DNA of 16,673 bases from Anaerolineales bacterium (lineage in GTDB: Bacteria; Chloroflexota; Anaerolineae; Anaerolineales; Villigracilaceae), in NCBI GenBank assembly GCA_016928525.1, contig JAFGKO010000102.1, positions 1-16,673 on the forward strand. Reading direction: 5' to 3'. Shown here in pieces: positions 1,465-16,238 of the stretch (position 1 is its first letter; each line of letters opens with the position of its first letter). The translations under genes and the position numbers were made by a program. The notes beneath the pieces are model-generated. The model had not been told where the DNA came from. It saw only the letters and a list, made by a program, of their open reading frames with translations, and did no database searches.

Positions 1465-4389
1465 ATGGACATAAACTCGAACGGGGATGAAAAACGAACC
1501 TCGGATGAGGCCTGGCATGCGCTGACAGCAGAAGATGTACTCAGGCATCTGGAAGTTCAGGATGAGGGTTTGACAGCCAAACAGGCTGCCCATCGCTTAA
1601 ACCAGTACGGCCAGAACCAGTTGCAGGAAGCGCCACGTCCTACCTTTCTGCAAATGCTATGGGACCAGCTCAACAATTTCGTTGTTATCCTCTTGATCGT
1701 CGCCTCTATCATTTCGGCGTTGCTGGGAGATTACATCGAAGCTGGAGCGATCATGGCGATTGTGGTCTTAAATGCAGTGCTTGGCATCGTTCAGGAACAG
1801 CGCGCGGAGGAGGCCCTGGCGGCTCTCAAACGCCTGGCTGCGCCGGACGCGCAAGTCATGCGCGATGGGCGTCGGCAGTCCATTCCGGCGCGCGATCTGG
1901 TGCCCGGTGACATCGTCTTCCTGGAAGCTGGCAACTATATCCCTGCAGATGTACGTTTGCTGGAAGCTATCAACCTGCGCGTGGAGGAAGCCTCGCTGAC
2001 CGGCGAGTCACTGCCAGTGCAGAAGAACGCCGCCACCGTGCTGGATAAGAACGTCCCGCTCGGAGACCGCAAGAACACAGCTTTCATGGGTACCTTGGTT
2101 TCTTATGGCCGAGGGCGTGGCGTAGTGGTCAGCACTGGCATGCGCACACAGTTAGGCTTGATCGCTACGATGTTGCAAAGCGTAGAATCTGAAGAAACCC
2201 CGCTCCAGCGCCGCCTGGACCAGTTGGGAAAAACATTGAGCATTGCCTCGTTGCTTCTGGTGGCAATTGTATTCATTGTCGCTCTGATCAACTATACCGA
2301 AATTGGCGAGTTGTTTACCGGACCGCTAGCCTATTTCAAGGAATTCGCAGCGGAAATCACTGAGGTTTTCATCATCGCTGTCAGCCTGGCGATTGCGGCA
2401 GTCCCGGAGGGGTTACCAGCGGTGGTGACCATCAGCCTGGCGCTGGGCATGCGCGAGATGATCCAGCGTCACGCGCTCATCCGTAAATTGTCTTCCGTTG
2501 AAACGCTGGGTTCCGCCACCGTGATTTGTTCCGATAAAACCGGAACACTGACGCAAAATGAAATGACTGTCACACGTTTATGGGCGGATGGGCAATTCAT
2601 TAAGGTGACCGGTTCAGGCTATGCGCCGCATGGTGATTTCATGGTCGACGAAAAGCCGGTCGATTTGGCAAAATATCCAGCCATCCTGACTTCTCTCTGG
2701 CTGGGCGTGCTCAATAACGACGCTGCTCTTGAAATCACCGGCGAACGCGAAGAAGAAAAGACCTACCGCATCGTCGGCGACCCGACCGAAGGCGCCCTGA
2801 TCGTGGCCGCCGCCAAAACTGGCGCCTGGCAAGGCGAAGTCAAAGAAGCATACCCGCGCGGGAACGAGGTTCCCTTTGACTCGGAACGCAAGCGCATGAT
2901 CACTATCCATGATGTGGACAACCCGCGTCCGGATGACATTTCCCCGTTTTATGATGAACACTTCAAAGGTTGGGATGTGATTGCTGTCAAAGGCGCGCCC
3001 GATATTGTGCTGGACTTATGCTCGCACTACCAAAACATGGATGATCAGTCCAAGCCGTTGAACGATGAGAAGCGGAAGCGTATCCTGGCCGCCAATGATG
3101 AGATGACCAAAGATGCCCTGCGCGTATTAGGTGTAGCCTACCGTATGGAAAAGGATATCATCGGTCATGTAGAAGAGCTCAAAGCCGAAGAGTTAGAAAA
3201 GGATTTGGTCTTTGTCGGTTTGATAGGCATGATTGATCCGGCCAGGCAGGAAGTCAAACCGGCACTCGAAAATGCACGCCAGGCAGGCATCAGTACAGTG
3301 ATGATCACAGGCGACTATCCGAACACCGCGCGCGCCATCGCCGAATCCATTGGCTTGATGAAGTACAGGAAAGGCGTCCTAACTGGTGGGGACCTGGACA
3401 AGATGAGTGACAAACAATTGCAGGATGTTATTGAGGACACGGCTGTATTTGCTCGCGTCTCGCCTGAACACAAGATGCGCATTGTGGATGCGCTGCAGGC
3501 CAAGGACGAAGTGGTCGCCATGACAGGCGATGGCGTCAACGATGCCCCGGCCATCAAGCGTGCCGACATCGGTGTGGCCATGGGCATCACCGGAACGGAC
3601 GTGGCCAAAGAAACCGCTGATATGGTGTTGACCGATGATAACTATGCCAGCATCGTTGCAGCCGTGGAGCAGGGACGTATCATTTACAGCAATATCCGCA
3701 AGTTCGTGTTCTTCCTGCTCTCCTCCAATGTGGCAGAGATCATGATCATCTTCCTGGCCACGCTGGCGGGTCTTCCTGCGCCGCTGACTGCCATTCAACT
3801 GCTCTGGCTGAACCTGGTTACAGACGGCGCACCTGCGCTTGCGTTGGCGATGGAAAAAGGCGACCCCGATATCATGGAACAGCAACCACGCGCCAAAAGC
3901 GAACCAATCATCAACCGCAGCATGGGACTGGGCATCGTCATTCAGACCATTACCCAAACCACCGCCGTTCTGATGGCCTTTGGTCTGGGATTATACTGGC
4001 ACATTGACCAGGCGCTCCCGGCGGGCATCAACCCTATCCTCGGCCTGATCCAGCACGATTGGCGTGGTGTGGATGTGCAAACGGCCGAAACAATGGCCTT
4101 CCTGACACTCTCTCTGTGCGAGTTATTCCGCGCTTACACCGTCCGTTCGGAACGCGCCTCGCTCTTCACGATTGGCATTTTCTCCAACAAGTATATGCAA
4201 TATGCAGTCGGGCTTTCAATCACCTTGTTGCTGCTGGTCGCTGGAGTTCCCTTCCTACAGCCTATCTTCAACACCCACTGGCTCAACGTGAACGAATGGC
4301 TGCTCGTGGTCGGCTTGGCTCTTATCCCGGCCATTTCCGAGGAAATCACCAAGTTCTACCTGCGAAAGAGTGAACGCAGGACAAAATAA
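1465..4389 (+). CDS. P-type Ca2+/Mn2+ ATPase (P2A type), probable Mn2+ exporter
   Basis: A complete 974-residue cation pump that uses ATP to drive a divalent cation across the cytoplasmic membrane. It has an N-terminal cation-ATPase domain, the actuator motif TGES (179-182), the M4 motif PEGLP (314-318), phosphorylation motif DKTGTLT with D357, nucleotide-binding KGAPD (509-513) and the hinge TGDGVND (687-693). The ion-site residues N755/E758 in M5 and N783, T786, D787 in M6 match site II of SERCA. In M8 the sequence SLCELF seems to carry Ser where SERCA has the site-I Glu, suggesting a single-ion, PMR1-like pump. The start follows GGAGG (1451-1455) by 9 bases. The upstream Mn2+ riboswitch makes Mn2+ the likely substrate; Ca2+ transport remains possible. 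The gene is monocistronic and ends at a large palindrome. Confidence 0.93.
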   Translation: MDINSNGDEKRTSDEAWHALTAEDVLRHLEVQDEGLTAKQAAHRLNQYGQNQLQEAPRPTFLQMLWDQLNNFVVILLIVASIISALLGDYIEAGAIMAIVVLNAVLGIVQEQRAEEALAALKRLAAPDAQVMRDGRRQSIPARDLVPGDIVFLEAGNYIPADVRLLEAINLRVEEASLTGESLPVQKNAATVLDKNVPLGDRKNTAFMGTLVSYGRGRGVVVSTGMRTQLGLIATMLQSVESEETPLQRRLDQLGKTLSIASLLLVAIVFIVALINYTEIGELFTGPLAYFKEFAAEITEVFIIAVSLAIAAVPEGLPAVVTISLALGMREMIQRHALIRKLSSVETLGSATVICSDKTGTLTQNEMTVTRLWADGQFIKVTGSGYAPHGDFMVDEKPVDLAKYPAILTSLWLGVLNNDAALEITGEREEEKTYRIVGDPTEGALIVAAAKTGAWQGEVKEAYPRGNEVPFDSERKRMITIHDVDNPRPDDISPFYDEHFKGWDVIAVKGAPDIVLDLCSHYQNMDDQSKPLNDEKRKRILAANDEMTKDALRVLGVAYRMEKDIIGHVEELKAEELEKDLVFVGLIGMIDPARQEVKPALENARQAGISTVMITGDYPNTARAIAESIGLMKYRKGVLTGGDLDKMSDKQLQDVIEDTAVFARVSPEHKMRIVDALQAKDEVVAMTGDGVNDAPAIKRADIGVAMGITGTDVAKETADMVLTDDNYASIVAAVEQGRIIYSNIRKFVFFLLSSNVAEIMIIFLATLAGLPAPLTAIQLLWLNLVTDGAPALALAMEKGDPDIMEQQPRAKSEPIINRSMGLGIVIQTITQTTAVLMAFGLGLYWHIDQALPAGINPILGLIQHDWRGVDVQTAETMAFLTLSLCELFRAYTVRSERASLFTIGIFSNKYMQYAVGLSITLLLLVAGVPFLQPIFNTHWLNVNEWLLVVGLALIPAISEEITKFYLRKSERRTK

Positions 4390-4405: not shown

Positions 4406-4435
4406 ATAGGGACAGGCACATGTGCCTGTCCCTAT
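4406..4435. repeat. palindromic element 1 (perfect 30-base palindrome)
   Basis: ATAGGGACAGGCACA (4406-4420) is followed directly by its exact reverse complement (4421-4435). It sits between the convergent ATPase (stop TAA 4387-4389) and RNase HII genes. The RNase HII stop codon TAG (minus strand, 4434-4432) is part of the palindrome. T5 (4437-4441) follows on the plus strand, so it probably ends the ATPase transcript, and it may act both ways. It resembles the elements at 10110 and 13830. Confidence 0.85.
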
Positions 4436-5058
4436 GTTTTTAATGAAAACGTCTTTCTATGAACGGAGGAATAACCCAATCGTTTCAGCGCGGACCGATG
4501 GGCCTGCGTGCCGTACCCCTTGTTTTGCCCCAGTCCATAGCCGGGATACTGTCCATCCAGCTCACGCATGAGTGCATCGCGCGCTGTCTTTGCCAGCACC
4601 GAGGCGGCCGCAATACTCATGCAACGCGAGTCGCCTTTCGGCAGGGATGTTTGCGGCAGTTCGCTTTCGGGCAGTTCCAGGCGGAAGTCTGTCAGCAAAA
4701 AAATGGGTTGCCGGGTTAATGCGTCTAACGCGCGCATCCCTGCCAGTCGTATAGCGCTGACGATGCCCAAGCGGTCGATTTCTTCGGGGGAGGCATAAGC
4801 CACGCTCCAGGCCAGAGCAGTCACTTGAATGCCTGGCACACACAGGTCACGTTGACGGGGTGTCATCTGCTTGGAATCGCGCACGCAGGCCAAAATCCGG
4901 GAAAGATGCGGATCAGGAGGCAGGATGACTGCCCCAACGGCAACTGGTCCGGCCAGTGCGCCACGTCCGGCCTCATCCAATCCAGCCACGCGACTCAGTC
5001 CGCTTCTCCACAAGTCTATTTCGAATTGCAGATCTGGGAGATCAGTCTTGCGGGTCAT
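4432..5058 (-). CDS. rnhB: ribonuclease HII
   Basis: RNase HII cuts the RNA strand of RNA-DNA hybrids and starts removal of single ribonucleotides misincorporated into DNA. The 208 residues cover the whole family length. The N-terminal motif GLDEAGRGALAGP gives catalytic D28 and E29. DSKQM at 61-65 matches the usual DSKKL, LLTDF gives D124, KGDSR gives D143, and the tail HRKTFSLK is typical of the family end. The usual Gly after the third catalytic Asp (VDG) is replaced by Phe here. The ATG start overlaps the 3' end of the glycosyltransferase gene by 17 bases, so it is the last gene of a four-gene operon. No strong ribosome binding site is visible, consistent with coupling. Its stop codon lies inside the palindrome at 4406-4435. 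Confidence 0.95.
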   Translation of the reverse strand: MTRKTDLPDLQFEIDLWRSGLSRVAGLDEAGRGALAGPVAVGAVILPPDPHLSRILACVRDSKQMTPRQRDLCVPGIQVTALAWSVAYASPEEIDRLGIVSAIRLAGMRALDALTRQPIFLLTDFRLELPESELPQTSLPKGDSRCMSIAAASVLAKTARDALMRELDGQYPGYGLGQNKGYGTQAHRSALKRLGYSSVHRKTFSLKT

Positions 5059-5773
5059 ACCGGCCGCGCAGGTTATTCCAGTGGATCAGGAAGATATCGC
5101 GAAGCATGAGGATAGCGTCTTTGATTGCCCGGAGCTTGGTCTCGGGGTCGAAGTACCAGTGGATTGGCACTTCGCTGATTCGATATCCCCGCTTGAGAGC
5201 AATGTACAGGATCTCTATGTCGAATGACCAACCGGAGACGGTCTGATAAGGAAAAATGTCTTCAGCAACGGCCCCGCGGAAACACTTGAAGCCACATTGC
5301 GTGTCATGAAACCCCGGGAGGATCAGGAGGCGAATGGCAAAATTGATCAGCCGCCCGCCGCGGTGGCGATATTCCGGCTCATTATAGCGAACGGCTCCAG
5401 CAGCCTCTCGCGAGGCAATGGCAATATCAAGCTGTTCCACCTTTGCTGGGATGAATTTACTCAGTTCGGTGATGGGCATCGAAAGATCGGCGTCACACAT
5501 GAAACGATATTCCCCTCTGGCTTCCAGCATGCCGCGGCAAACAGCTTTGCCTTTGCCGGGTTGCTCCTCTTTCAAGATTCGCAAGTTCGCAAGCTGCTTT
5601 GCCAACCCCAGGGCAATTTCATAGGTCCGGTCGCTGCTACCATTTTCAACCACCAGGACTTCCGCGGTGTAATTCTGGGCTTGCAAGAACGTAAAAATTT
5701 GCTCCAGTGCGTGGGGCAATCTACGTTCCTCGTTGTGGGCAGGAATAATAATAGAGAGAAAAGGAGATGCCAA
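5042..5773 (-). CDS. family 2 glycosyltransferase, dolichyl/polyprenyl-phosphate glucosyltransferase-like
   Basis: The 243-residue protein has the GT-A fold signature of GT2 enzymes: SIIIPAHNEE near residues 7-16, VVENGSSDRT around 41-50, GKGKAVCRGM at 73-82 and the metal/nucleotide-binding DAD (94-96). The later motifs DTQCGFKCF and GWSFDIEIL, followed by EVPIHWYF, are those of the ALG5/DPM1-like group that charges a lipid phosphate carrier with a sugar from UDP- or GDP-sugar. No C-terminal membrane segments are present, so it is probably peripheral. The first possible start is TTG at 5773, six bases after the stop codon of the upstream gene in the same frame. No ATG or GTG precedes the conserved N-terminus and no Shine-Dalgarno is evident, so translation is probably coupled. 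It overlaps rnhB by 17 bases. Confidence 0.85.
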   Translation of the reverse strand: MASPFLSIIIPAHNEERRLPHALEQIFTFLQAQNYTAEVLVVENGSSDRTYEIALGLAKQLANLRILKEEQPGKGKAVCRGMLEARGEYRFMCDADLSMPITELSKFIPAKVEQLDIAIASREAAGAVRYNEPEYRHRGGRLINFAIRLLILPGFHDTQCGFKCFRGAVAEDIFPYQTVSGWSFDIEILYIALKRGYRISEVPIHWYFDPETKLRAIKDAILMLRDIFLIHWNNLRGRYDPQD

Positions 5774-5779
5774 AGGAAA

Positions 5780-6736
5780 TCAGGAATTAAGATAGAGAAT
5801 AATGGCAAAACCAACCAGCACGCAAATCTCGACCAGGAGCATACCTGCCAATAGCGCCAGTTGTGGAACGGTCATGCCCAGATAGCGTTTTTTCGCATCA
5901 GCCTTCGCCGGGAGAGGCAGCGCCGGGTTGGTCTCGATCAATTCCGGAGGAATTTCCAACCCCGAATCCTCATCGAATGCGAACCCAAGGTCTGTGGGGT
6001 TGAACGTCCCAGCTTCATCCGCAGCGCGGAAGATAGCCCCGGCGCGCGAAAGTTCCGGCTCTTCCTCACTTCGAATTGCCTGCGCAGCGGACTCTGACTT
6101 TGGCAAGGGAACGGCGGATTCCGATTCCCCATCTTTTTTCGGCGGACGCGGATTGACAATCCGGTCGGCCAATTCATAAGCTGTCTCGACGGTAAAGACA
6201 GGCGCAGCGTTGCTCACCGAAGCCGCCCAACGCTCTAAGGCATCCACCATGACAACACGGACGACCGGGCGTAACGATTGCACATGCATGCCAGGATTGG
6301 CTGTCAATAACACCGGCTCAACAGGTTGCGGCAACTTCACACCCTGGCGCTCAATGAATGCTTGCAACGCCCGCGCCAAACGCTCTGTACGGGTGAGTAA
6401 ATTGATGGCCACAGGCTTAAAGGTCTGGCCGGAAATAGTGCCCCAGCTATCGCCTTTTGCCTGGTAAGTCCCGCGCAAGTGCGTGACATAGGCTGCAAAA
6501 ATCCCCCCCGGCCCTACTATCGCCAGCGGGATCGCGATTCCGCTGGCTCCCAGCGTGTGGTTACGGATCACTGTATACCCTTTTCCCAGGCCGCGCTCCA
6601 ACAGGGCAAGCGCAAATTTCTGGGCCTCTAATTCGGGATACCAGCTCAAGCCGAACTGGAGCGTACCTTGTATACGCTGAATGATCCCTATTTTGCCATT
6701 TTCATCTTGTAGTTGGGTTCGGTCAATCAGTTTCAT
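5780..6736 (-). CDS. NERD-like domain protein with C-terminal membrane anchor
   Basis: A 318-residue protein read from ATG 6736 (an in-frame TTG at 6757 would add seven residues; neither start has a clear ribosome binding site). Residues about 35-175 follow the pattern of the nuclease-related domain (NERD): an early helix (AQKFALALLERGL), the core strand pair IAIPLAIVGPGGIF (67-80), then NLLTRTERLARALQAFIE and PVEPVLLTANPG. The acidic and Lys residues expected of an active NERD nuclease appear replaced (P70, Y83, T85 at my alignment of D, E, K), so it may be a non-catalytic version. Residues 195-285 are acidic, low-complexity linker, and about 290-315 form one transmembrane helix, giving a tail-anchored layout. 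It sits between a small conserved protein and a glycosyltransferase. The family assignment is by eye and moderate. Confidence 0.6.
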   Translation of the reverse strand: MKLIDRTQLQDENGKIGIIQRIQGTLQFGLSWYPELEAQKFALALLERGLGKGYTVIRNHTLGASGIAIPLAIVGPGGIFAAYVTHLRGTYQAKGDSWGTISGQTFKPVAINLLTRTERLARALQAFIERQGVKLPQPVEPVLLTANPGMHVQSLRPVVRVVMVDALERWAASVSNAAPVFTVETAYELADRIVNPRPPKKDGESESAVPLPKSESAAQAIRSEEEPELSRAGAIFRAADEAGTFNPTDLGFAFDEDSGLEIPPELIETNPALPLPAKADAKKRYLGMTVPQLALLAGMLLVEICVLVGFAIILYLNS

Positions 6737-6772
6737 CAGGAAGGGGCTTTTCGACAAATGTGAGGCGCTTTG

Positions 6773-7081
6773 TTAGAACGCCGGAGTCTTTTCGAGATCA
6801 TCGCGTTGCGCCGCATCCTCGCGGGTCGTTAAGAATTCCCTGCCATTTTCACCCACGGCTTTGACGGTCTTGCCGAGTTCAAAAGTGCTGGCCAAAAATT
6901 CCTTGCGTTGACCGGTACTGAAGTTCTTGCCCGCCTTAAGCCGTTCTAGCAGGGTTTTGCGGTCGAGCAACACACGATCCGAGAAGGTGACGCCGCGCCG
7001 CTCGTAGGCGCGCACCAGGGCGATCTGCCCATTCGGGTTGTAGCGAACTGCTTCGATCACTCCGTCGATTTTCTTTGCCAT
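6773..7081 (-). CDS. small conserved hypothetical protein
   Basis: The start is set at ATG 7081 because GGAGGG (7092-7087 on the minus strand) lies five bases upstream; the 18-base longer frame from 7099 would put this site inside the gene. The 102-residue product begins MAKKIDGVIEAVRYNPNGQI and continues with a basic, soluble, mixed alpha/beta sequence (RAYERRGVTFSDRVLLDRKTLLERLKAGKNF) and a charged C-terminus. There is no signal peptide or membrane segment. I cannot assign a function. It is the first gene of the operon that continues with the NERD-like protein, the glycosyltransferase and RNase HII, and has its own promoter directly upstream. Confidence 0.75.
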   Translation of the reverse strand: MAKKIDGVIEAVRYNPNGQIALVRAYERRGVTFSDRVLLDRKTLLERLKAGKNFSTGQRKEFLASTFELGKTVKAVGENGREFLTTREDAAQRDDLEKTPAF

Positions 7082-7099
7082 GGGGGCCCTCCAGTGCAT

Positions 7100-7124
7100 A
7101 TTTTAGCACAAAGGTGACCGTCAC
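7100..7124 (-). promoter_or_regulatory. extended -10 promoter and dyad before the four-gene operon
   Basis: On the minus strand TGC-TAAAAT (7108-7100) is an extended -10 box, placing the transcript start near 7093, just ahead of the GGAGGG ribosome binding site. No good -35 box is seen. Upstream lies GTGAC-c-GTCAC (7114-7124), a perfect 5-bp dyad with one central base, which could be an operator. Confidence 0.5.
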
Positions 7125-7132
7125 TTAAAAAT

Positions 7133-7291
7133 TCGGGTGGGTGGATGGTGAAATCCCTTCAATGGGGCGTGTCCCCTTTTAAGGGAGAAACCGCCGACCA
7201 AAAAGAATCAGCGGCTTCCTGGTCGGGGTGGGAGGACGGTGAAATCCCCTGAAAAGGGGAAACTGCTGACCATTCCTGATCAGCAGTTTAT
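7133..7291 (-). repeat. two tandem repeat units copying the 3' end of tRNA-Pro
   Basis: Reading away from the tRNA on the minus strand, unit 1 (7291-7220) and unit 2 (7219 to about 7133) share the same order: a 10-bp hairpin, a CCCC/GGGG hairpin, GATTTCACC(G/A)TCC and CCCACCC(C)GA. Unit 1 ends with the tRNA's own acceptor end and CCA: 7220-7237 matches 7292-7309 in 17 of 18 positions. The unit-1 hairpin is 7289-7280 with 7269-7260, the unit-2 hairpin 7217-7208 with 7197-7188. Their differences keep pairing in minus-strand RNA, including a T-A to C-G double change. They may act as terminators or processing signals of the tRNA transcript. They encode no protein. Confidence 0.7.
7260..7289 (-). 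terminator. hairpin directly downstream of tRNA-Pro
   Basis: On the minus strand AAACTGCTGA (7289-7280 read as complement) pairs perfectly over 10 bp with TCAGCAGTTT, with a 10-base loop, starting three bases after the tRNA CCA end. It is followed by TTT-CCCC-TTTT rather than a clean T-run, so termination may be weak or the hairpin may serve processing. Confidence 0.45.
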
Positions 7292-7367
7292 TGGTCGGGG
7301 TGGGCGGACTTGAACCGCCGGCCCCCGCGTCCCAAACGCGGTGCGCTGCCAACTGCGCTACACCCCG
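7292..7367 (-). tRNA. tRNA-Pro (anticodon UGG)
   Basis: The minus strand folds as a standard 76-base tRNA including an encoded CCA end. The acceptor arm is CGGGGTG (7367-7361) with CACCCCG (7302-7296), discriminator A and CCA (7294-7292). The anticodon arm is CCGCG-TTTGGGA-CGCGG, which places TGG at positions 34-36 and reads proline codons. The T arm is GGCGG-TTCAAGT-CCGCC. Its own promoter lies immediately upstream, so the primary transcript would have a leader of only about three bases. Its 3' end is partly duplicated in the repeat units downstream. Confidence 0.97.
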
Positions 7368-7376
7368 AGCGAGACG

Positions 7377-7405
7377 AGTATAATGCGAAGGTTGAAAAAT
7401 CGCAA
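7377..7405 (-). promoter_or_regulatory. promoter of tRNA-Pro
   Basis: On the minus strand TTGCGA (7405-7400), 17 bases and TATACT (7382-7377) form a good sigma-70 promoter. The start would be near 7370, three bases ahead of the mature tRNA. Its -10 box overlaps the plus-strand TATAAT of the divergent esterase gene. Confidence 0.75.
7379..7384 (+). promoter_or_regulatory. -10 box of the esterase gene
   Basis: A perfect TATAAT 32 bases before the likely ATG at 7417. No matching -35 box is present 16-18 bases upstream, where the tRNA gene lies, so the promoter may be weak or depend on other contacts. It overlaps the tRNA promoter's -10 box on the other strand. Confidence 0.5.
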
Positions 7406-7416
7406 GCAGATTGGAC

Positions 7417-8304
7417 ATGATGATACGCCTCGGTCGAACTCTCCTTCTCCTCCCGCTTCTGGCCGGACTTTGGGCCTGCTCGCCGTCGAGCGAGTCTATC
7501 CCCACGCCGACAGCACTTCCCGCCACTCCTACGTATACACCTACGCCGCCGCCACCTACGCCGATCCCGACAGCGACACCACTCGGTTGCCTGACTCAGC
7601 CTGGGCATGTCGAGCAAGGCAGCGTACAGGGAACCAACCCCCCGCAGGAATATCTGATCTACCTGCCACCGTGCTATGACGAGCAGCCAGATGAGCGTTA
7701 TCCCGTACTATATCTACTCCATGGACAAACCTACACCGATGACCAGTGGGTACGTCTCGGTGCAGTCACAGTCGCGGACAGGTTGATTCTGAGCGGTGAA
7801 GCCTCTCCTTTCATCATTGTTTTCCCCGATGACCGCTACTGGAATGTGCAGGCCGGGCCCGGGTTTGGACAACGCCTGGTGGATCACCTGATTCCTTATA
7901 TTGATCAAAACTACCGCACCCTCGCTGAGCGTGAGCATCGCGCCCTGGGCGGCATGTCGCGTGGAGCCGGTTGGGCTTTGCGGCTTGGCTTGCGGCGCTG
8001 GGAACTCTTCGGGACCCTGGGACTGCACTCCCTGGCGGCCTTCGCCGACGACCGTCCGTTTTTGGGCGATTGGTTGGAGGTTATTCCTCCCGAATCCTGG
8101 CCCAATATCTTCATCGATACGGGCGAGAGCGACCAGGAGTTGGGCTTCAACTCCCTGTTCGAGAGCACGCTCACACAGCTTGGAATCCCACATGAATGGC
8201 ACCTGTATCCCGGTGCTCATGATGAGCTATATTGGCAGGCTCATGTAGAAGAGTATCTGCGCTGGTACACAGAAATCTGGAGCCTCCAGGCAGCAGAACA
8301 ATAA
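7417..8304 (+). CDS. secreted lipoprotein esterase (alpha/beta hydrolase, esterase D type)
   Basis: The product (295 residues from ATG 7417; an upstream TTG at 7411 and an ATG at 7420 are alternatives) starts with a lipoprotein signal peptide, LLLLPLLAGLWAC, giving a lipidated Cys at 21. Then comes a Pro/Thr-rich linker of about 35 residues that tethers the domain outside the membrane. The rest is an alpha/beta hydrolase of the putative-esterase family: strand VLYLLHG, a nucleophile elbow GMSRG with S181, an acid near FIDTGESD (D234 or D239) and catalytic H268 in GAHDELYW. This family includes feruloyl and acetyl-xylan esterases and S-formylglutathione hydrolase; the natural ester is unknown. 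The gene is divergent from tRNA-Pro and ends 16 bases before gatC. Confidence 0.85.
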   Translation: MMIRLGRTLLLLPLLAGLWACSPSSESIPTPTALPATPTYTPTPPPPTPIPTATPLGCLTQPGHVEQGSVQGTNPPQEYLIYLPPCYDEQPDERYPVLYLLHGQTYTDDQWVRLGAVTVADRLILSGEASPFIIVFPDDRYWNVQAGPGFGQRLVDHLIPYIDQNYRTLAEREHRALGGMSRGAGWALRLGLRRWELFGTLGLHSLAAFADDRPFLGDWLEVIPPESWPNIFIDTGESDQELGFNSLFESTLTQLGIPHEWHLYPGAHDELYWQAHVEEYLRWYTEIWSLQAAEQ

Positions 8305-8308
8305 CAGG

Positions 8309-8314
8309 TATAAT
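8309..8314 (+). promoter_or_regulatory. -10 box placing the gatC start at its ATG
   Basis: A perfect TATAAT followed by six bases and the gatC ATG at 8321, so the transcript would begin at or next to the start codon. No Shine-Dalgarno sequence and no -35 box are visible. Confidence 0.5.
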
Positions 8315-8320
8315 TTCGCC

Positions 8321-8608
8321 ATGCCACTCTCCCTACAAGAAGTCGAGCATATCGCCAAGCTGGCCCGCCTGGAATTAACCGACGGGCAAAAAGCGCGTTA
8401 CCGCGAACAGTTAGAGGCCATTCTTGACCATGTTGCCAAGCTACAGGAACTGGATACGACGGATGTACCTCCCACCGCCAGCGTCTCAGTAGGGCAAATG
8501 CCGCTCCGCGTGGACGAGTCGCGTCCTGGCCTGTCGACCAGCGCCTTGCTCGAAAATGCCCCGCAACAAGCTGACGGTCAGTTCCAAATCCCACCTGTTT
8601 TCGAATAG
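8321..8608 (+). CDS. gatC: Asp-tRNA(Asn)/Glu-tRNA(Gln) amidotransferase subunit C
   Basis: GatC is the small subunit that holds GatA and GatB together in the GatCAB complex, which converts misacylated Glu-tRNA(Gln) or Asp-tRNA(Asn) to the correct product. The 95-residue length and sequence fit: LQEVEHIAKLARLELTDGQK near residues 5-24, the coiled helix LEAILDHVAKLQELDTTDV, and the C-terminal ENAPQQADGQFQIPPVFE that wraps on GatA. It is followed after 24 bases by gatA. A TATAAT six bases before the ATG and absence of a ribosome binding site suggest its own, leaderless promoter. gatB is not in the window. Confidence 0.95.
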   Translation: MPLSLQEVEHIAKLARLELTDGQKARYREQLEAILDHVAKLQELDTTDVPPTASVSVGQMPLRVDESRPGLSTSALLENAPQQADGQFQIPPVFE

Positions 8609-8632
8609 CATTTGTTCGAGATTTGATTTTTT

Positions 8633-10105
8633 ATGTCATCCCTTACTGAGCTCAGTCTAAAAGAGATGCAGACCGGTCTGCGCGAGGGCCAATTCTCCAG
8701 CCGTGAGTTGGTAGAGGCCGCTTTGGAACGCATTAAGCAATTGGAACCTTCCCTGCACACGTTTTTGCACGTGGCCGAATCGGCTTTGCAGCACGCGGAA
8801 GAGGCTGATAGACAATTGACAAGTGATAGACAACAACTGCCTCTAGCAGGAATCCCAATCGCCGTTAAAGATGTGCTGACTGTTGAAGGCATGCCTGCCA
8901 CGGCCGGCTCGAAGATCCTTGAAGGCTTTATGCCACCCTATACGGCTACGACCGTCAAAAAGTTGCAGGAAGCCGGGACCATCATAATTGGCAAAACCAA
9001 CATGGATGAGTTTGCAATGGGCTCTTCGACCGAAAACTCGGCTTATGGCGCGACTTACAATCCCTGGGATCTCACACGCGTGCCGGGCGGTTCTTCGGGC
9101 GGTTCGGCGGCAGCCGTGGCAGCGCGGCTTGTCCCGGTGGCGCTGGGCACAGATACGGGCGGCTCGGTGCGCCAACCAGCCTCGTTCTGTGGAGTGACCG
9201 GGTTGAAGCCAACCTATGGCCGTGTCTCACGCTATGGGTTGATCGCTTTCGGCTCCTCTCTGGACTGTGTGGGTGCCTTCGGGCGTACAGCCGAGGATGT
9301 GGCGGTCATCTTCGAAATCATGGCCGGGCACGACCCGCTGGATGCGACCTCGGCGGAGGTGGAAGTGGTCTCGATACGCCCAACGAACACGGGCTACTCG
9401 ACCGACGCGCCCCTACGAGGGTTGAGAATCGGCGTCCCACAGGAATACTTCATCGAGGGCATGCAGGCCGAAGTCCAGGAAAAGACGCGGGCGGCTATCG
9501 CGCAGTTGGAGTCGCTCGGCGCAGAAGTCCAGGAAATCAGCCTGCCGCATACCGAGTACGCATTGCCCGTCTACTATATTCTGGCCCCTGCGGAGGCTTC
9601 GGCCAACCTGGCGCGTTTCGACGGTGTCCGCTATGGCCCGCGCGTGCAGGCAGACTCGCTCTGGGAAGTGTTCTTCAAAACACGCGGAGAGAAGTTTGGC
9701 GCGGAAGTGACGCGGCGCATCATGCTGGGGACCTATGCGCTTTCGGCAGGCTATTATGATGCGTATTATGGACAAGCGCAGAAGGTGCGCACGCTCATCA
9801 AACGGGATTTTGAAACTGCGTTCGAGAAAGTGGACTTGATCGCCTGCCCGTCTGCGCCAACGACAGCCTTTAAAATTGGCGCGCACACGGGTGACCCGCT
9901 GGCAATGTATCTGGAAGATGTCTTTACCCTGCCGGCCAGCCTGGCGGGCGTGCCGGGAATTTCGTTCCCGGTGGGATTTGATAGCATAGGATTACCGATT
10001 GGTATGCAGTTGCTGGCGTCACATTTCCGCGAGGATTTGTTGTTCAGAGCGACGTATGCCTACCAGCAAGCGACGGATTGGCATAAACAAAAGCCGAATA
10101 TGTGA
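8633..10105 (+). CDS. gatA: Asp-tRNA(Asn)/Glu-tRNA(Gln) amidotransferase subunit A
   Basis: GatA is the amidase subunit that frees ammonia from glutamine and passes it to GatB. The 490 residues match the full length of the family. The Ser-cisSer-Lys triad is intact: K79 in IAVKDV, S154 in the PGGSSGGSAAAVAA amidase signature and S178 in TDTGGSVRQPAS, at the same positions as in the Staphylococcus aureus enzyme. NMDEFAMGSSTENSAYG and GRVSRYGLIAFGSSLD are further GatA-type motifs that separate it from generic amidases. The ATG at 8633 lacks a strong ribosome binding site, so it is probably translated together with gatC. The gene ends with TGA (10103-10105), four bases before a palindromic element that separates it from galE. 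Confidence 0.96.
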   Translation: MSSLTELSLKEMQTGLREGQFSSRELVEAALERIKQLEPSLHTFLHVAESALQHAEEADRQLTSDRQQLPLAGIPIAVKDVLTVEGMPATAGSKILEGFMPPYTATTVKKLQEAGTIIIGKTNMDEFAMGSSTENSAYGATYNPWDLTRVPGGSSGGSAAAVAARLVPVALGTDTGGSVRQPASFCGVTGLKPTYGRVSRYGLIAFGSSLDCVGAFGRTAEDVAVIFEIMAGHDPLDATSAEVEVVSIRPTNTGYSTDAPLRGLRIGVPQEYFIEGMQAEVQEKTRAAIAQLESLGAEVQEISLPHTEYALPVYYILAPAEASANLARFDGVRYGPRVQADSLWEVFFKTRGEKFGAEVTRRIMLGTYALSAGYYDAYYGQAQKVRTLIKRDFETAFEKVDLIACPSAPTTAFKIGAHTGDPLAMYLEDVFTLPASLAGVPGISFPVGFDSIGLPIGMQLLASHFREDLLFRATYAYQQATDWHKQKPNM

Positions 10106-10109
10106 TTTA

Positions 10110-10138
10110 GTAGGGGCAAGTCTGAGACTTGCCCCTAC
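10110..10138. repeat. palindromic element 2
   Basis: GTAGGGGCAAGTCT (10110-10123) and its exact reverse complement (10125-10138) flank a single G. It lies four bases after the gatA stop and is followed at once by GGAGG (10139-10143), the ribosome binding site of galE. It shares the TAGGG arm ends and the GTCTGAGAC centre with the element at 13830. There is no T-run after it, so termination is uncertain. Confidence 0.85.
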
Positions 10139-10147
10139 GGAGGAATG

Positions 10148-11125
10148 ATGAACATTTTCGTTACAGGCGGCGCAGGTTATATCGGCTCGGCCACGGTAGA
10201 AGCATTACTCAAAGCCGAACACACGGTCACAGTGTATGATTCGCTCGTCACTGGTCACAGACAGGCTGTACCAGATGGCGCACGCTTTATCCATGCTTCG
10301 CTGGAAGACAGCCACGCGCTGGCCGAAGCGCTGACCGCCGAAAAAATCGACGCGGTCATGCACTTTGCAGCCTTTATCGAGGCAGGCGAAAGCATGAAAA
10401 ATCCCGGCCGCTTCTATCAAAACAATCTGGTCAATTCGTTGCACCTGATCGAGAAGGCCGTTAAGGCAGGCGTGGAACGCTTTGTGTTATCGTCTACGGC
10501 AGCCGTGTACAAGTCTAGCGATGAGCCGCTTACCGAAGATTCTCCCCTCGGCCCGACCAATGTGTACGGGCACACCAAGTTGGTGATCGAGGAAACACTG
10601 GACTGGTATCGCCAGATCCATGGCTTGCATTATGCTGCGTTGCGCTATTTCAATGCTTGCGGCGCGTTACCGGGACGCGGCGAGGCGCACCAACCTGAAT
10701 CGCACCTGATCCCGCGTGTGTTGAGCGTCCCGCTGGGAAAAATGGAAGCGGCCAATATCAACGGGAATGATTACCCCACTCCGGATGGCACCTGCATCCG
10801 TGATTACATCCACATTGCGGACCTGGTTTCGGCGCACTTGCTGGCGCTCGATGCGCTGGGAGAACGTGATCGGCTGGTCTATAACCTTGGAAACGGAAGC
10901 GGGTACTCGGTCCGCGAGGTGATCGAGACAGCGCGCGCTGTGACGGGTCACCCGATCCCGGTCATTGAGTCGCCTCGGCGTCCCGGTGATCCGGCTCGTC
11001 TGGTTGCTTCATCCAAAAAAATCCGCCACGAACTGGGTTGGGAACCACAACATCCCGATTTGAAAGGCATTATCTCGAGCGCCTGGGAGTGGCACAAATC
11101 GCACCCGAGAGGTTACGAATCATGA
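10148..11125 (+). CDS. galE: UDP-glucose 4-epimerase
   Basis: An extended short-chain dehydrogenase that interconverts UDP-glucose and UDP-galactose with bound NAD. The 325-residue protein starts MNIFVTGGAGYIGS with the Rossmann GxxGxxG motif. It has SST at 115-117 and the catalytic pair Y140/K144 in YGHTK. The substrate-loop sequence ACGALPGRGEAHQPESHLIP and NDYPTPDGTCIRDYIHIADL are typical of GalE rather than other sugar epimerases. I prefer ATG 10148 over ATG 10145 because GGAGG ends at 10143, leaving four rather than one base. Its stop overlaps the next start as ATGA, so it is coupled to the hydrolase. UDP-galactose made here would serve cell-surface glycans, and possibly galactose use. 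Confidence 0.92.
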   Translation: MNIFVTGGAGYIGSATVEALLKAEHTVTVYDSLVTGHRQAVPDGARFIHASLEDSHALAEALTAEKIDAVMHFAAFIEAGESMKNPGRFYQNNLVNSLHLIEKAVKAGVERFVLSSTAAVYKSSDEPLTEDSPLGPTNVYGHTKLVIEETLDWYRQIHGLHYAALRYFNACGALPGRGEAHQPESHLIPRVLSVPLGKMEAANINGNDYPTPDGTCIRDYIHIADLVSAHLLALDALGERDRLVYNLGNGSGYSVREVIETARAVTGHPIPVIESPRRPGDPARLVASSKKIRHELGWEPQHPDLKGIISSAWEWHKSHPRGYES

Positions 11126-11814
11126 CATTTTCTTTCCATCGTATCCCAGTCGGTATCGACAATTGTTTCTTGCTGCGCGGCGAGCGGACCGTGCTCATCG
11201 ATGGCGGCGCTCCCTTTGGGGCGGGCGCTTTCGTGCGCATTATGCGGCAACTGGGCGTCGATCCGCAGGAAATCGAACTCGTGCTCCTGACACACGGTCA
11301 TTGGGATCACATCGCATCCCTGGGTTTTGTGCTGGAGCAGAGCGGGGCCAAAGTAGCTGTTCACCGCAATGACCAGGCCTGGGTCGAGGCTGGAACGCCG
11401 CCGTTTCCACCGGGAGTGAATTCCTATGGGCGCGGCATGATCTGGCTGGCGGAACGTCTTATTCATCCGAAATTGCCGCCCGTCAAAATTGACGTCGTGC
11501 TGGGCGATGAGGGTATGTCTCTGGCCGAGTATGGCATTCCGGGCAAGGTGGTCCATACACCGGGGCACACGCAAGGGTCGGTCATGGTTTTATTGGAAAC
11601 CGGTGAGGCCTTTGTGGGCGATATGGCCATGAATGCCTGGTTCTTGCGGCGAACGCCCGGCTTGCCCGTTCTGGCCGAGGATCTTGATATGGTCGTCGAG
11701 AGCTGGAAAAAGGTCCTGCCGACGGGTATCCAACGAATTTATCCGGCGCATGGCATGGACTTTCCCGCCGATGTTATTCAAAAAGAAATCCTCGCTTACG
11801 AGGCAATGCAATGA
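11122..11814 (+). CDS. metallo-beta-lactamase-fold hydrolase
   Basis: The 230-residue protein carries the full zinc-binding set of the glyoxalase II-like superfamily: THGHWDH with H58, H60, D62 and H63, then H149 in HTPGHTQGS, D167 in VGDMAM and H210 in PAHG. Both zinc sites are therefore expected to be filled. The early strand DNCFLLRGERTVLIDGG is the usual start of the fold. No signal peptide is present, so it is cytoplasmic. The superfamily includes thioesterases, glyoxalases and lactonases, and the substrate cannot be told. The start at 11122 overlaps the galE stop as ATGA, with GAGAGG upstream; a longer frame from 11038 would run far into galE. Its own stop overlaps the next start in the same way. 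Confidence 0.9.
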   Translation: MTFSFHRIPVGIDNCFLLRGERTVLIDGGAPFGAGAFVRIMRQLGVDPQEIELVLLTHGHWDHIASLGFVLEQSGAKVAVHRNDQAWVEAGTPPFPPGVNSYGRGMIWLAERLIHPKLPPVKIDVVLGDEGMSLAEYGIPGKVVHTPGHTQGSVMVLLETGEAFVGDMAMNAWFLRRTPGLPVLAEDLDMVVESWKKVLPTGIQRIYPAHGMDFPADVIQKEILAYEAMQ

Positions 11815-12455
11815 CATTTCTGGTTGTGCTCATCGGCTGGATTTTCTCACTTTGTCTGCACGAATTCTCACACGCGCTGGTGGCCTACCTGGGCGGCGAC
11901 TGGACCGTGCGCGACAAAGGCTACCTGACCTTCAACCCGCTCAAGTACACACACCCGGTCTATTCGTTGCTGCTGCCCCTGCTCTTCCTGGTGATGGGCG
12001 GGATTGGTTTGCCCGGCGGCGCTGTATACATCGAGACTTGGCGACTGCGCAGCAAACGCTGGGTCAGCGCGGTTTCGCTGGCGGGGCCGCTCTCGAACCT
12101 GCTCCTGGCCCTCATCCTGGCCTTGCTCCTGCGCTTTGCTCCCATTGATTTCTCCGGCGCCTGGCCGGGACTGGCCTTCCTGGCGCTTTTGCAGGTGACG
12201 GCAGTTGTGCTCAATCTTATCCCTGTGCCGCCCTTTGACGGATTCGGGGCTATCGAGCCGCACCTGAACGAACCTGTCCGCATGCAGTTTGCGCAGTTCC
12301 GCGGCGCGTTTATCTGGATCGTGTTCCTGGTGCTTTGGTACGTGCCGTTTATCAACAACCTGTTCTGGGGGTTAATATTTTCCATTTCCCAGTTTATTGG
12401 CATTCCGCTCACATTGGCGGCGACAGGCCTCGATCAATTCCTATTCTGGCGCTGA
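11811..12455 (+). CDS. site-2 protease family (M50) membrane metalloprotease
   Basis: A 214-residue, strongly hydrophobic protein with the intramembrane zinc protease motifs HEFSH (H17, E18, H21) in the first helix and NLIPVPPFDGFG with the third ligand D143. AGPLSNLLLALI (91-102) is another S2P-type signature. Four to five further membrane segments follow, and there is no PDZ domain, placing it among the small M50 proteases. Family members cleave membrane-embedded substrates such as anti-sigma factors; the target is not evident here. Its ATG overlaps the stop of the hydrolase gene as ATGA, so galE, the hydrolase and this protease form a translationally coupled set. A weak terminator follows. 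Confidence 0.88.
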   Translation: MTFLVVLIGWIFSLCLHEFSHALVAYLGGDWTVRDKGYLTFNPLKYTHPVYSLLLPLLFLVMGGIGLPGGAVYIETWRLRSKRWVSAVSLAGPLSNLLLALILALLLRFAPIDFSGAWPGLAFLALLQVTAVVLNLIPVPPFDGFGAIEPHLNEPVRMQFAQFRGAFIWIVFLVLWYVPFINNLFWGLIFSISQFIGIPLTLAATGLDQFLFWR

Positions 12456-12473
12456 AGCAAACTCTAAACGAGT

Positions 12474-12490
12474 CCCATCAGTGGGTTTTT
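12474..12490 (+). terminator. weak intrinsic terminator after the protease gene
   Basis: CCCA-TCAG-TGGG (12474-12485) followed by TTTTT (12486-12490), 19 bases after the stop codon. The stem has only four pairs, extended at best by wobble pairs, so it may be inefficient. Confidence 0.4.
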
Positions 12491-12507
12491 GCAAGGGCAA
12501 TAATATA

Positions 12508-12536
12508 TTTACAAATCGGATAAATTAGAGTATAAT
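12508..12536 (+). promoter_or_regulatory. promoter of the NADH dehydrogenase gene
   Basis: TTTACA (12508-12513) matches the -35 consensus in five of six positions. It is followed by 17 bases and a perfect TATAAT (12531-12536). The start would be near 12543, inside the Rex-like operator, leaving a leader of about 45 bases with GAGG (12580-12583) before the ATG. Confidence 0.85.
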
Positions 12537-12538
12537 TA

Positions 12539-12556
12539 TTGTGTATTATTTCACAA
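12539..12556 (+). promoter_or_regulatory. Rex-like operator over the ndh transcription start
   Basis: TTGTGTATTATTTCACAA fits the Rex consensus TTGTGAA-N4-TTCACAA in 13 of 14 defined positions. It begins two bases after the -10 box and covers the predicted start, a repressing position. Rex senses the NADH/NAD+ ratio, and ndh is a known Rex target in Bacillus. The rex gene itself is not in the window. Confidence 0.75.
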
Positions 12557-12587
12557 ACTTTATGCGCTTAGAAAGCAGTGAGGTTTT

Positions 12588-13835
12588 ATGAAACCACTTC
12601 CCCATGTCGTCGTCATCGGTGCCGGGTTTGGCGGGCTGGATGCTGTGAAACGACTGGCAAAAGCGCCGGTGCAAATCACACTAATTGATCGACACAACTA
12701 CCACCTGTTCCAGCCTTTGCTGTACCAAGTAGCGATTGCAGGACTCTCGCCGGTGCAGATCGCGTATCCGGTGCGGGCCATTTTCCACCGCCAACACAAT
12801 CTGAATTTCCTGATGGGCGAAGTATTGGATATCGACTTCGGTACCCAGCAGGTAATAACAGAACACAAAACGTTGAAGTATGACTACCTGATCCTGGCTC
12901 CGGGCAGCCGCACTAATTTTTTCGGCATGCAGTCGATTGAAAAGAACGGTCACGAGATGAAGGATATTTCCAGCGCCGTTGCGACCCGCAATCACCTGCT
13001 GAAATTGTTCGAAAAAGCCAGTCGCAAGTCGGATCCGGATGCGCGCCGCGCCATGCTGACCTTTGTGGTAGTTGGCGGCGGCCCGACCGGCGTCGAGAGT
13101 GCCGGGGCGCTGGCCGAGTTGATCCGTTTGGTATTGAGCAAAGATTACCCCCAGATGGACCTGAAGGATGCACGGGTGATCCTGATCGAGGCCAGCAATC
13201 ATTTGATGCCCAATATCTATCCGCGCAACTTGCAGGCCGCAACCCTGAAACTGTTGCGCCGCAAGCATGTCAGCGTCCGGCTGCGCGCGAAAGTCACCAG
13301 GTTTGATGGGAAGAGGGTAACACTCGAAGACGATGAGCCCATCTCAGCTCACACTCTAATTTGGACAGCCGGCGTGCGGGTTGCAAAGCTAATCGAAAAA
13401 CTGGAGGCGGCAAAAGGAGCCGGAGGAAGGATGATCGTCAAGCCGACTTTGCAACTCCCTGGCTATCCCGAAGTCTATGTGATTGGGGATGCTGCTTATC
13501 TGGAGGATAAACAGGGGCAGCCTTTACCCTTGCTGGCGACAGTTGCCCAGCAACAAGCGCAACATGCCGCCAGGAGTATCCACGGCGAGCTACGTGAGCG
13601 ACCGCCAAAGCCATTTTATTACAAGGATCCCGGTTTGCTTGCTACTGTTGGCCGCAATGCGGCTGTCGCCCGCTTGTGGGGTATCTCGTTCAGCGGATTG
13701 ATCGCCTGGCTGATTTGGGTCGGCCTGCACATCTATCGTCTGATCGGATTCCGTAACCGGCTGATCGTGATGCTCAACTGGGCCTGGGATTATTTCTTCT
13801 ATGACAGCCAGGTACGGTTGATTACAAAGGAGTAG
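12588..13835 (+). CDS. ndh: type II NADH dehydrogenase (NDH-2)
   Basis: A single-subunit, non-proton-pumping NADH:quinone oxidoreductase on the inner face of the membrane. The 415 residues contain the FAD-binding GAGFGG (11-16), the NADH-binding GGGPTG (163-168), the second FAD motif GDAAY with D301, and the quinone-site pattern AQQQAQHAA shortly after. The C-terminal 50 residues (GLIAWLIWVGLHIYRLIGF...WAWDYFFYD) are the aromatic amphipathic region that attaches NDH-2 to the membrane. Start: GAGG four bases before ATG 12588. The promoter has a near-consensus -35/-10 pair and an overlapping Rex-like site, so expression should rise when NADH accumulates. The TAG stop lies in the palindromic element at 13830. 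A ferredoxin- or sulfide-quinone reductase is less likely given the motifs. Confidence 0.93.
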   Translation: MKPLPHVVVIGAGFGGLDAVKRLAKAPVQITLIDRHNYHLFQPLLYQVAIAGLSPVQIAYPVRAIFHRQHNLNFLMGEVLDIDFGTQQVITEHKTLKYDYLILAPGSRTNFFGMQSIEKNGHEMKDISSAVATRNHLLKLFEKASRKSDPDARRAMLTFVVVGGGPTGVESAGALAELIRLVLSKDYPQMDLKDARVILIEASNHLMPNIYPRNLQAATLKLLRRKHVSVRLRAKVTRFDGKRVTLEDDEPISAHTLIWTAGVRVAKLIEKLEAAKGAGGRMIVKPTLQLPGYPEVYVIGDAAYLEDKQGQPLPLLATVAQQQAQHAARSIHGELRERPPKPFYYKDPGLLATVGRNAAVARLWGISFSGLIAWLIWVGLHIYRLIGFRNRLIVMLNWAWDYFFYDSQVRLITKE

Positions 13836-13862
13836 GGACGGGTTTGAGACCCGTCCCTACTC
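13830..13862. repeat. palindromic element 3, carrying both flanking stop codons
   Basis: A 16-bp stem around a single G (13846), with one wobble pair near the centre. The arms read AGTAGGGACGGG and CCCGTCCCTACT. The ndh stop TAG (13833-13835) is in the left arm, and the TAG stop of the convergent gene (minus strand, 13859-13857) is in the right arm. It is probably also the shared terminator, although no long T-run follows on either side. Confidence 0.85.
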
Positions 13863-14216
13863 TAATTCGCGATAGATGTACCACTGCCCCTTACGTTCGT
13901 CCACGCTTTTCATCGCACGGTCGTAGTACAGGTCGAAGATCTGTCCCGTGTCCACCTTTACGCGGAAGTAAAAACGCCCAACATTTAATGATCCGCGCGT
14001 GGAGGCGACCGCTGCATGCGCGGGCCGCATGTTACGGGCCATCTTCCCACGCCGCGTGAAATCGCTCCACTCCGACAGGGTTTCGAGGACGCGGTAAGTT
14101 TCGCCTTCCCAAACGAAACCATTGGGGCAATCCGGAGTCTTTTCGCGCGCTGGAGGAGTATCAAAGATTACTTCAATGGGATCATCGTAAAAGTGGATTG
14201 GTGTGAGTTCCGTCAT
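13857..14216 (-). CDS. DUF6504-like conserved protein
   Basis: The 119-residue soluble protein has a small-domain pattern PNGFVWEGETYRVLETLSEWSDF at about residues 31-53 and GRFYFRVKVDTGQIFDLYYDRA at about 80-101, with no signal or membrane segment. The F-W-x-G-x-x-Y-x-V and Y-F-R-V...F-x-L-Y-Y-D layout resembles DUF6504 proteins, which often occur near DNA repair genes in other bacteria; this assignment is from memory and moderate. It is the last gene of the minus-strand run that begins with the DNA glycosylase, 30 bases after the Mth938-like gene. No ribosome binding site is evident before ATG 14216. Its stop codon is inside the palindrome at 13830-13862. Confidence 0.65.
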   Translation of the reverse strand: MTELTPIHFYDDPIEVIFDTPPAREKTPDCPNGFVWEGETYRVLETLSEWSDFTRRGKMARNMRPAHAAVASTRGSLNVGRFYFRVKVDTGQIFDLYYDRAMKSVDERKGQWYIYRELE

Positions 14217-16078: not shown

Positions 16079-16137
16079 AAATTGAGTAGTTTCCCGTTCA
16101 GTGTTATAGGCACCATTCGCAAGCATAACCACAAGGA

Positions 16138-16186
16138 CACGGAGACACTGAGAACAAACGCTCTATGATTCTGTATCTCCGTGGTG
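16138..16186. repeat. degenerate ACCAC...CACGGAG inverted repeat
   Basis: AACCACAAGGACACGGAGAC on the left and TCTCCGTGGT on the right form an interrupted inverted repeat in the 160-base gap between the HIT gene and the amylase. It is of the same low-complexity type as the remnants at 824-860 and 1000-1053. No gene is seen in the gap. Confidence 0.5.
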
Positions 16187-16238
16187 AAACTTCAAGATCG
16201 ACGTTCAAGAGAGTACTGCAGACCCGACTCGCGAAACA

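Follow-up and report, generated by a model that had tools for sequence, protein, structure and literature searches.

Palindromes at gene ends in the window

The window analysed here, a stretch of 16,673 nucleotides (nt) from an Anaerolineales bacterium (contig JAFGKO010000102.1, assembly GCA_016928525.1), carries three short palindromes in the gaps behind genes, and these are the subject of this study (Table 1). A preliminary description had reported three near-perfect hairpins with TAGGG(A/G)C arm ends; they are confirmed as real, and their coordinates are exact. The motif TAGGGRC-N8-22-GYCCCTA was found three times in the window (3 copies per 16.7 kb) and not once in 200 dinucleotide shuffles, and arms of at least 14 bases were found in 2 of 30 first-order-random versions of the window, the longest being 15. 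RNA folding of the three palindromes gave energies of -23.2 to -27.9 kcal/mol, with z scores of -6.0 to -8.5. Two of the three elements have GT[AG]G at the 5' end and its mirror image C[TC]AC at the 3' end; in element 1 the ends are ATAG..CTAT, with A..T replacing G..C.

Table 1. Palindromes and adjacent gene features in the window.
Feature	Position	Strand	Basis and remarks
P-type cation ATPase gene, upstream of element 1	1465..4389	+	Open reading frame (ORF) and Pfam
Element 1, double-foot-like REP palindrome ATAGGGACAGGCACATGTGCCTGTCCCTAT	4406..4435	.	A..T ends; 15-bp arms, no centre; TGTTTTTAA next on +
rnhB (RNase HII)	4432..5058	-	ORF and Pfam
rnhB TAG stop, from element 1	4432..4434	-	ORF
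gatA-like gene, upstream of element 2	8633..10105	+	ORF; name from the preliminary description; similar genes in L006 and L011
Element 2, double-foot REP palindrome GTAGGGGCAAGTCTGAGACTTGCCCCTAC	10110..10138	.	14-bp arms, 1 central base; GGAGG next; no T tract
galE-like (NAD-dependent epimerase) gene, downstream of element 2	10145..11125	+	ORF; name presumed
ndh (NDH2-type NADH dehydrogenase)	12588..13835	+	ORF and Pfam (NDH2-type oxidoreductase)
ndh TAG stop, from element 3	13833..13835	+	ORF
Element 3, double-foot REP palindrome, core GTAGGGACGGGTTTGAGACCCGTCCCTAC at 13832-13860	13830..13862	.	16-bp arms, one mismatch, 1 central base
DUF6504 gene	13857..14216	-	ORF and Pfam
DUF6504 gene TAG stop, from element 3	13857..13859	-	ORF

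As had been described, the stops of rnhB, ndh and the DUF6504 gene lie within palindromes and the gatA stop falls four bases short of 10110. The third element is located between the convergent ndh and DUF6504 genes and supplies the stops of both. Two further points were absent from the preliminary description: the stop of the ATPase gene lies 17 bases ahead of the TAG of the first element, and the second element, which follows the gatA stop, is about 10 bases ahead of the start of the presumed galE-like gene.

We propose that these palindromes are very probably "double foot" repetitive extragenic palindromes (REPs), non-autonomous substrates of the REP-associated tyrosine transposases (RAYT, or TnpAREP), which are "domesticated" single-strand HUH nucleases with one catalytic tyrosine. 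We favor this reading because relatives show dispersed copies, GTAG..CTAC ends, paired arm variation, a strong preference for the gaps behind genes, and transposases that carry the palindrome themselves.

Copies and arm pairing in related genomes

The DUF6504 protein, used as a query, matched 20 loci in records of Anaerolineae or Chloroflexi, and the genomes with these loci are the 20 related genomes referred to below. All copy numbers, locations and transposase links come from relatives' genomes, not from that of the window species. A genome scan of the kind that the preliminary description had suggested as a check, run in these relatives, returned many further copies: the motif was present in 19 of the 20 genomes, with 47 copies in G005, 39 in G013 and 17 in G004, against 5, 10 and 11 for the reversed-motif controls. 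Together with their placing at gene ends, these counts support, in relatives, the earlier proposal of a dispersed element. When the G..C ends were included (GTAGGGRC(N)GYCCCTAC), the motif was present in 105 of the 301 genomes sampled within the phylum; 63 of them had at least five copies, the maximum was 158, and the reversed control gave 0-4 per genome.

The arms were compared in 94 elements (46 of the 47 from G005, all 39 from G013, 6 of the 17 from G004 and the three from the window). The ends were G..C in 84 of them, and in 73 of 74 elements from four further genomes. The constant outer part consisted of TAGGG and the C at the seventh position. The motif does not constrain the inner 8-22 bases, yet 65 of the 94 elements had no arm mismatch and 24 had one. 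Beyond the foot, arm positions were paired in 95.7% of cells, compared with a mean of 66.6% (maximum 74.1%) after the 3' arms had been shuffled among copies of equal length, although identical copies and kinship raise these counts. As a test of selection at the RNA level, G.U and A.C mismatches in the arms were counted, and the numbers were 17 and 8, respectively (p 0.11).

Location relative to genes and stop codons

Genes were called with our own simple caller, which was inspected on the window. For the 91 elements of G005, G013 and G004, 55 were in gaps between same-strand genes, 19 in convergent gaps, 2 in divergent gaps and 15 inside genes. By comparison, 17,327 of 20,000 random positions (86.6%) were inside genes, with 1,778 in same-strand gaps, 285 in convergent gaps, 564 in divergent gaps and 46 at edges. 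Thus, 76 of the 91 elements were extragenic, compared with 13% of the random positions. In the same-strand gaps, 50 of 55 elements had a smaller 3' than 5' distance, and 35 of the 55 lay 3-8 nt past the stop; the median distance to the next start was 18 nt (60 5' distances). In four further genomes (G053, G136, G025 and G287) 74 elements were located, taken from the regions around the listed places (118 pattern matches in total) with the known copies inside transposase genes left out; 53 were in same-strand gaps, 16 in convergent gaps, 4 in divergent gaps, 1 at a sequence edge and none inside genes.

The preliminary description had set its gene-end proposal against the case of palindromes found equally inside genes and far from stop codons. 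The avoidance of genes is clear, but nearness to stops is not general, since the median 3' distance was about 85-90 nt in G053 and G136.

It had also been suggested that the palindromes were adopted as stop codons, and this holds for a minority of copies. The TAG of the element was the actual stop for 14 of the 91 elements, and for 0 of 25, 1 of 26, 5 of 13 and 0 of 10 elements in the four further genomes. TAG was not used more often in genes adjacent to elements (19/86) than in others (296/1365). In the compact genome G025 the elements fitted snugly to the gene ends and 5 of 13 supplied a stop, while G053 and G136 together gave 1 of 51 and G287, with 0 of 10, was mixed. Hence, stop provision appears to follow from tight gene packing, as a by-product and not the purpose of the element.

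Six of the 15 intragenic elements were in RAYT genes of the linked kind, and the other nine were in genes whose frame remained open through the element. The hosts include presumed glycerol kinase-, homoserine kinase-, MoeA- and GlyS-like proteins. The element translates in frame into V-G-A..P or R-G..P stretches, and a search for the encoded peptide GAGLKPAP found no paper in the literature collection used.

Linked RAYT transposases

A profile (A1) was made from RAYTs of the genomes studied and run in 12 element-rich genomes. Among its matches were RAYT genes that carry the palindrome beside the gene as well as inside it, in the stretch separating the HUH motif from the tyrosine motif. The transposases showed the HUH motif, the catalytic Y, an N-P motif and the TnpArep fold. 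The structure model of one of them (P0005, from Kallotenue papyrolyticum) had a mean predicted local distance difference test score (pLDDT) of 75.5, with linker residues 92-111 below 50. Fold matches were ISDra2 and IS608, both IS200/IS605 transposases, and 4er8 (TnpArep), which was also the only match at E 0.01 in a PDB sequence search. Scores against PF01797 were 25, 22 and 21 bits for three proteins (cut-off 23); the linked transposases are near or under the Pfam cut-off and were found by our own profile. An initial result that G005 had no RAYT, based on two Pfam matches there and on 30 Y1_Tnp loci (L040-L069) with no GTAG..CTAC palindrome, was rejected on these grounds.

A second profile (A2) was built from the palindrome-bearing subgroup. 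At E 1e-10 it matched in 98 of the 301 genomes, only 11 candidates being scored in most of them. Both elements and transposase were found in 65 genomes, elements only in 40, transposase only in 33 and neither in 163. The transposase was found in 37 of the 43 genomes with at least 10 elements, compared with 61 of the remaining 258; at this threshold 6 genomes had elements only and 197 had neither. The 30 best A2 loci included 10 with an exact palindrome inside the gene, in all 10 cases in the linker after the HUH motif, and 6 with one within 600 bp. Several of the other loci had near-perfect forms, some with the foot altered on both sides (GTCG..CGAC, GCAG..CTGC), and others had none. The arm variants most frequent in G053 were two (14 and 7 of 33 copies, of which 3 and 2 are at the genes themselves), and they were those found in its two full-length linked transposase genes. 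A palindrome-type linker was present in 91 of the 108 parsable sequences among 120 listed homologues of the L237 RAYT (7,995 over threshold), a query that itself has such a linker, so that its best matches favour it.

Other observations on these enzymes are as follows. Beside a RAYT gene of G256 (L255 16-1399, L262), which holds two palindromes itself, about ten GTAGGGGCGACCC..GGGTCGCCC(T/C)(T/A)AC palindromes were found every 113-179 bp. Several RAYTs of other subgroups (L103-L110, L112-L114) were bordered by quite different palindromes, e.g., GTAGAGCGAGATA (L110), AAGTGACAGTCACC (L106, L107) and CAACCTTGACAAGG (L103, L104). Each of the 20 related genomes also had one long frame (370-1098 aa) with an IS200-type Y1_Tnp domain (L050-L059, L063-L067, L069). 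In the three frames tested the domain was C-terminal, and two had a response-regulator-like start, under the Pfam cut-off. In the one locus tested for it (L053), the following gene was the start of DNA polymerase I. It is possible that this frame is a domesticated HUH protein next to polA.

Orthologous sites

At the ndh/DUF6504 junction, one relative (L005) had a palindrome of the same family in which a single pair differs on both sides, and another (L004) had a different GTAG palindrome (GTAGGTCACG..), of a type also found next to a RAYT elsewhere in that genome (L105). The junction was occupied in L006 by a GTAGAAACC..GGTTTCT hairpin, in L013 by a T-tailed hairpin and in L014 by a longer inverted repeat; by eye, no GTAG palindrome was present within 150 nt at the other ndh/DUF6504 loci. 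In L006 the gap between gatA and galE held a different inverted repeat.

The genomes G004 and G131 form a close pair, and their sites were compared directly, with the three-copy cluster L196 and two G131 copies left unplaced. All eight G131 elements compared had a counterpart in G004, and six of seven further G004 sites had one in G131; the seventh is in a RAYT gene, for which only a paralogue was matched in G131. Of the 14 sites common to both, six were identical and a seventh differed solely in the central base. In the 12 pairs of equal length, 13 of 335 columns differed, with two base pairs changed on both sides and eight otherwise, and in the flanks 109 of 4,166 columns differed. An apparent faster change in the elements than in the flanks (42/389 vs 109/4166) was withdrawn because two alignments were out of register, and the recount gave the figures above. 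At another site the inner part differed in length. At one shared site (L095/L322), G004 had 12 extra bases repeating the right arm of the element, which is intact in both genomes.

At one site (L295/L299) the same gap held palindromes with unrelated interiors, GTAGGGGCACGTATCGTGCCCCTAC and GTAGGGGCGGGGTTACCCCGCCCCTAC, in flanks identical at 277 of 294 positions, the nearest 10 nt or so being altered as well. This exchange was seen once; with the three different GTAG palindromes at ndh/DUF6504 (window, L005 and L004), it raises the tentative and rather doubtful idea that in compact Anaerolineae the gap behind a gene is a lasting seat, whose position is kept while double-foot hairpins replace one another.

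Weighing of the double-foot REP reading and its alternatives

Several results weigh against assigning the palindromes to RAYT-linked double-foot REPs. The motif count was not above the reversed control in 11 of the 20 related genomes, and among 400 genomes sampled within the order the best match to the ndh-DUF6504 stretch was 67% identical. The co-occurrence test ignores phylogeny, and the genomes are related, so that its p-values should not be read literally. Three of the 30 best loci had helped to build the A2 query, 20 of the 30 had no exact palindrome inside, and 17 genomes with at least five elements gave no A2 match at E 1e-10, with 11 candidates scored in most genomes. In G136 the variant in the transposase gene was 1 of 26 listed copies (of 51) and not the commonest. 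The best NCBIfam family, NF047646, scored 60.4-61.3 bits for three proteins, below its cut-off of 80, with the best stretch only after the linker. Finally, the comparison of G004 with G131 gave no clean empty site of the kind expected from the earlier proposal that the element inserts at or near gene ends; 14 of the 15 tested sites were common to both.

The palindromes might instead be bidirectional intrinsic terminators that took in stop codons. T tracts are enriched: TTTT occurred within 12 nt on 15 of 42 convergent sides, compared with 394 of 4874 windows in element-free convergent gaps, and at 11 of 56 same-strand elements, compared with a background of 96 of 1382 after stops. The terminator scan of the window listed elements 1 and 3, the first being followed by TGTTTTTAA on the + strand, and T-tailed hairpins were found at equivalent gene ends in L013 (ndh/DUF6504 and rnhB) and L007 (rnhB). 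However, most copies have no T tract (it is missing at 45 of 56 same-strand elements and at 27 of 42 convergent sides), termination at the 55 of 91 copies between same-strand genes would cut the operon at a median of 18 nt from the next start, and 15 of the 91 copies sit within genes that stay open. A separate cause would also be needed for the conserved GTAGGGRC foot and for the presence of copies in transposase genes. We therefore consider this explanation improbable for the family, while the terminator role given in the preliminary description is plausible for some copies, mainly the convergent ones.

Even less likely is that the palindromes are folded-up ends or remnants of another transposon, i.e., miniature inverted-repeat transposable elements (MITEs), and not RAYT-linked REPs. 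Transposition was not directly seen, and the 17 element-bearing genomes that gave no A2 match would fit such an origin; however, the same palindromes, with matching arms, lie inside and beside RAYT genes, and other palindromes flank some of the remaining RAYTs of these genomes (e.g., GTAGAGCGAGATA in L110 and GTAGGTCACG in L105). Binding sites of a dimeric protein, which the near-perfect symmetry and the constant TAGGG and seventh-position C might suggest, are the least credible explanation, since the inner arms vary freely but in pairs, as expected of a hairpin and not of base-specific reading, and divergent gaps, the places of promoters, contain just 2 of the 76 intergenic copies.

Under the double-foot REP reading, the transposase would act on the hairpin in single-stranded DNA, with GTAG probably serving as the guide, as in vitro for other REPs, and would copy or move the hairpin; with the foot mirrored, either strand could be used. 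Copies that fall in promoters or sensitive coding stretches would be lost, leaving survivors in gaps after stops or in tolerant protein linkers, and where genes are tightly packed the TAG of the foot would now and then become the stop of a gene. In a transcript the hairpin may stabilise the message or punctuate it, roles that have been discussed for other REPs. On this reading, between one fifth and one third of the phylum's sampled genomes (63 or 105 of 301) document double-foot REPs and transposases that carry them. It separates the identity of the element from its look in packed genomes, and with the paired arm variation one can ask, as a natural test, if selection, copying or template-switch repair maintains the pairing.

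Other features of the window

At gathering thresholds, Rfam matched only a tRNA in the window. Below them, a possible Mn2+ riboswitch (yybP-ykoY, RF00080; 20.4 bits, E 0.00065, gathering score 45) was found at 1289-1434 on the + strand, preceding the P-type ATPase gene, and a T-tailed hairpin at 1386-1414 lies within this candidate region. The stretches 820-1080 and 16121-16190 resemble other dispersed repeats, e.g., CCACAAGGACACGGAGACACTGAG... CTCCGTGG, and an inverted repeat of similar appearance occupies the gatA-galE gap of L006.

Comparison with known systems

RAYTs flanked by REPs, the two evolving together, were described by Nunvar (2010, PMC2817692). The GTAG REP super-family of Di Nocera (2013, PMC3733652) lies just past the 3' ends of genes and lends its TAG as the stop of a neighbour, and Chloroflexi are among its host phyla. 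Those REPs resemble the present elements in being 20-40 bp palindromes with GTAG, in their paired arm variants, in their preference for same-strand or convergent gaps and in having some intragenic copies. However, their GTAG is unpaired at one end, whereas here it pairs with CTAC, which ruled out a classical single-foot GTAG REP. The REPtrons of S. maltophilia and Marinomonas (group 3; Corneloup 2021, PMC8266576) are perfect palindromes, with cleavage at CT or CA set by guide pairing. They share with the present family the perfect hairpin with a GTAG guide, but they have a single foot and a shorter stem, belong to Proteobacteria and were tested in vitro.

The closest likeness is to the "double foot" REPs of TnpAREP subclass 2.4 (RAYT group 4) reported by Quentin (2018, PMC6006769), in which 5' GT[AG]G is mirrored by C[TC]AC 3' and copies flank the RAYT genes and lie within them between HuH and Y, as they do here in relatives. 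We therefore dropped the novelty of the copies inside transposase genes, which that paper already reports. It gives subclass 2.4 as abundant in Cyanobacteria and Bacteroidetes and scattered in other phyla; the present family, which is likened to the subclass, is in Chloroflexota. These reports indicate that the elements of the window belong to the double-foot kind of REP already described, and that the lending of stops by REPs has been in print since 2013 (PMC3733652).

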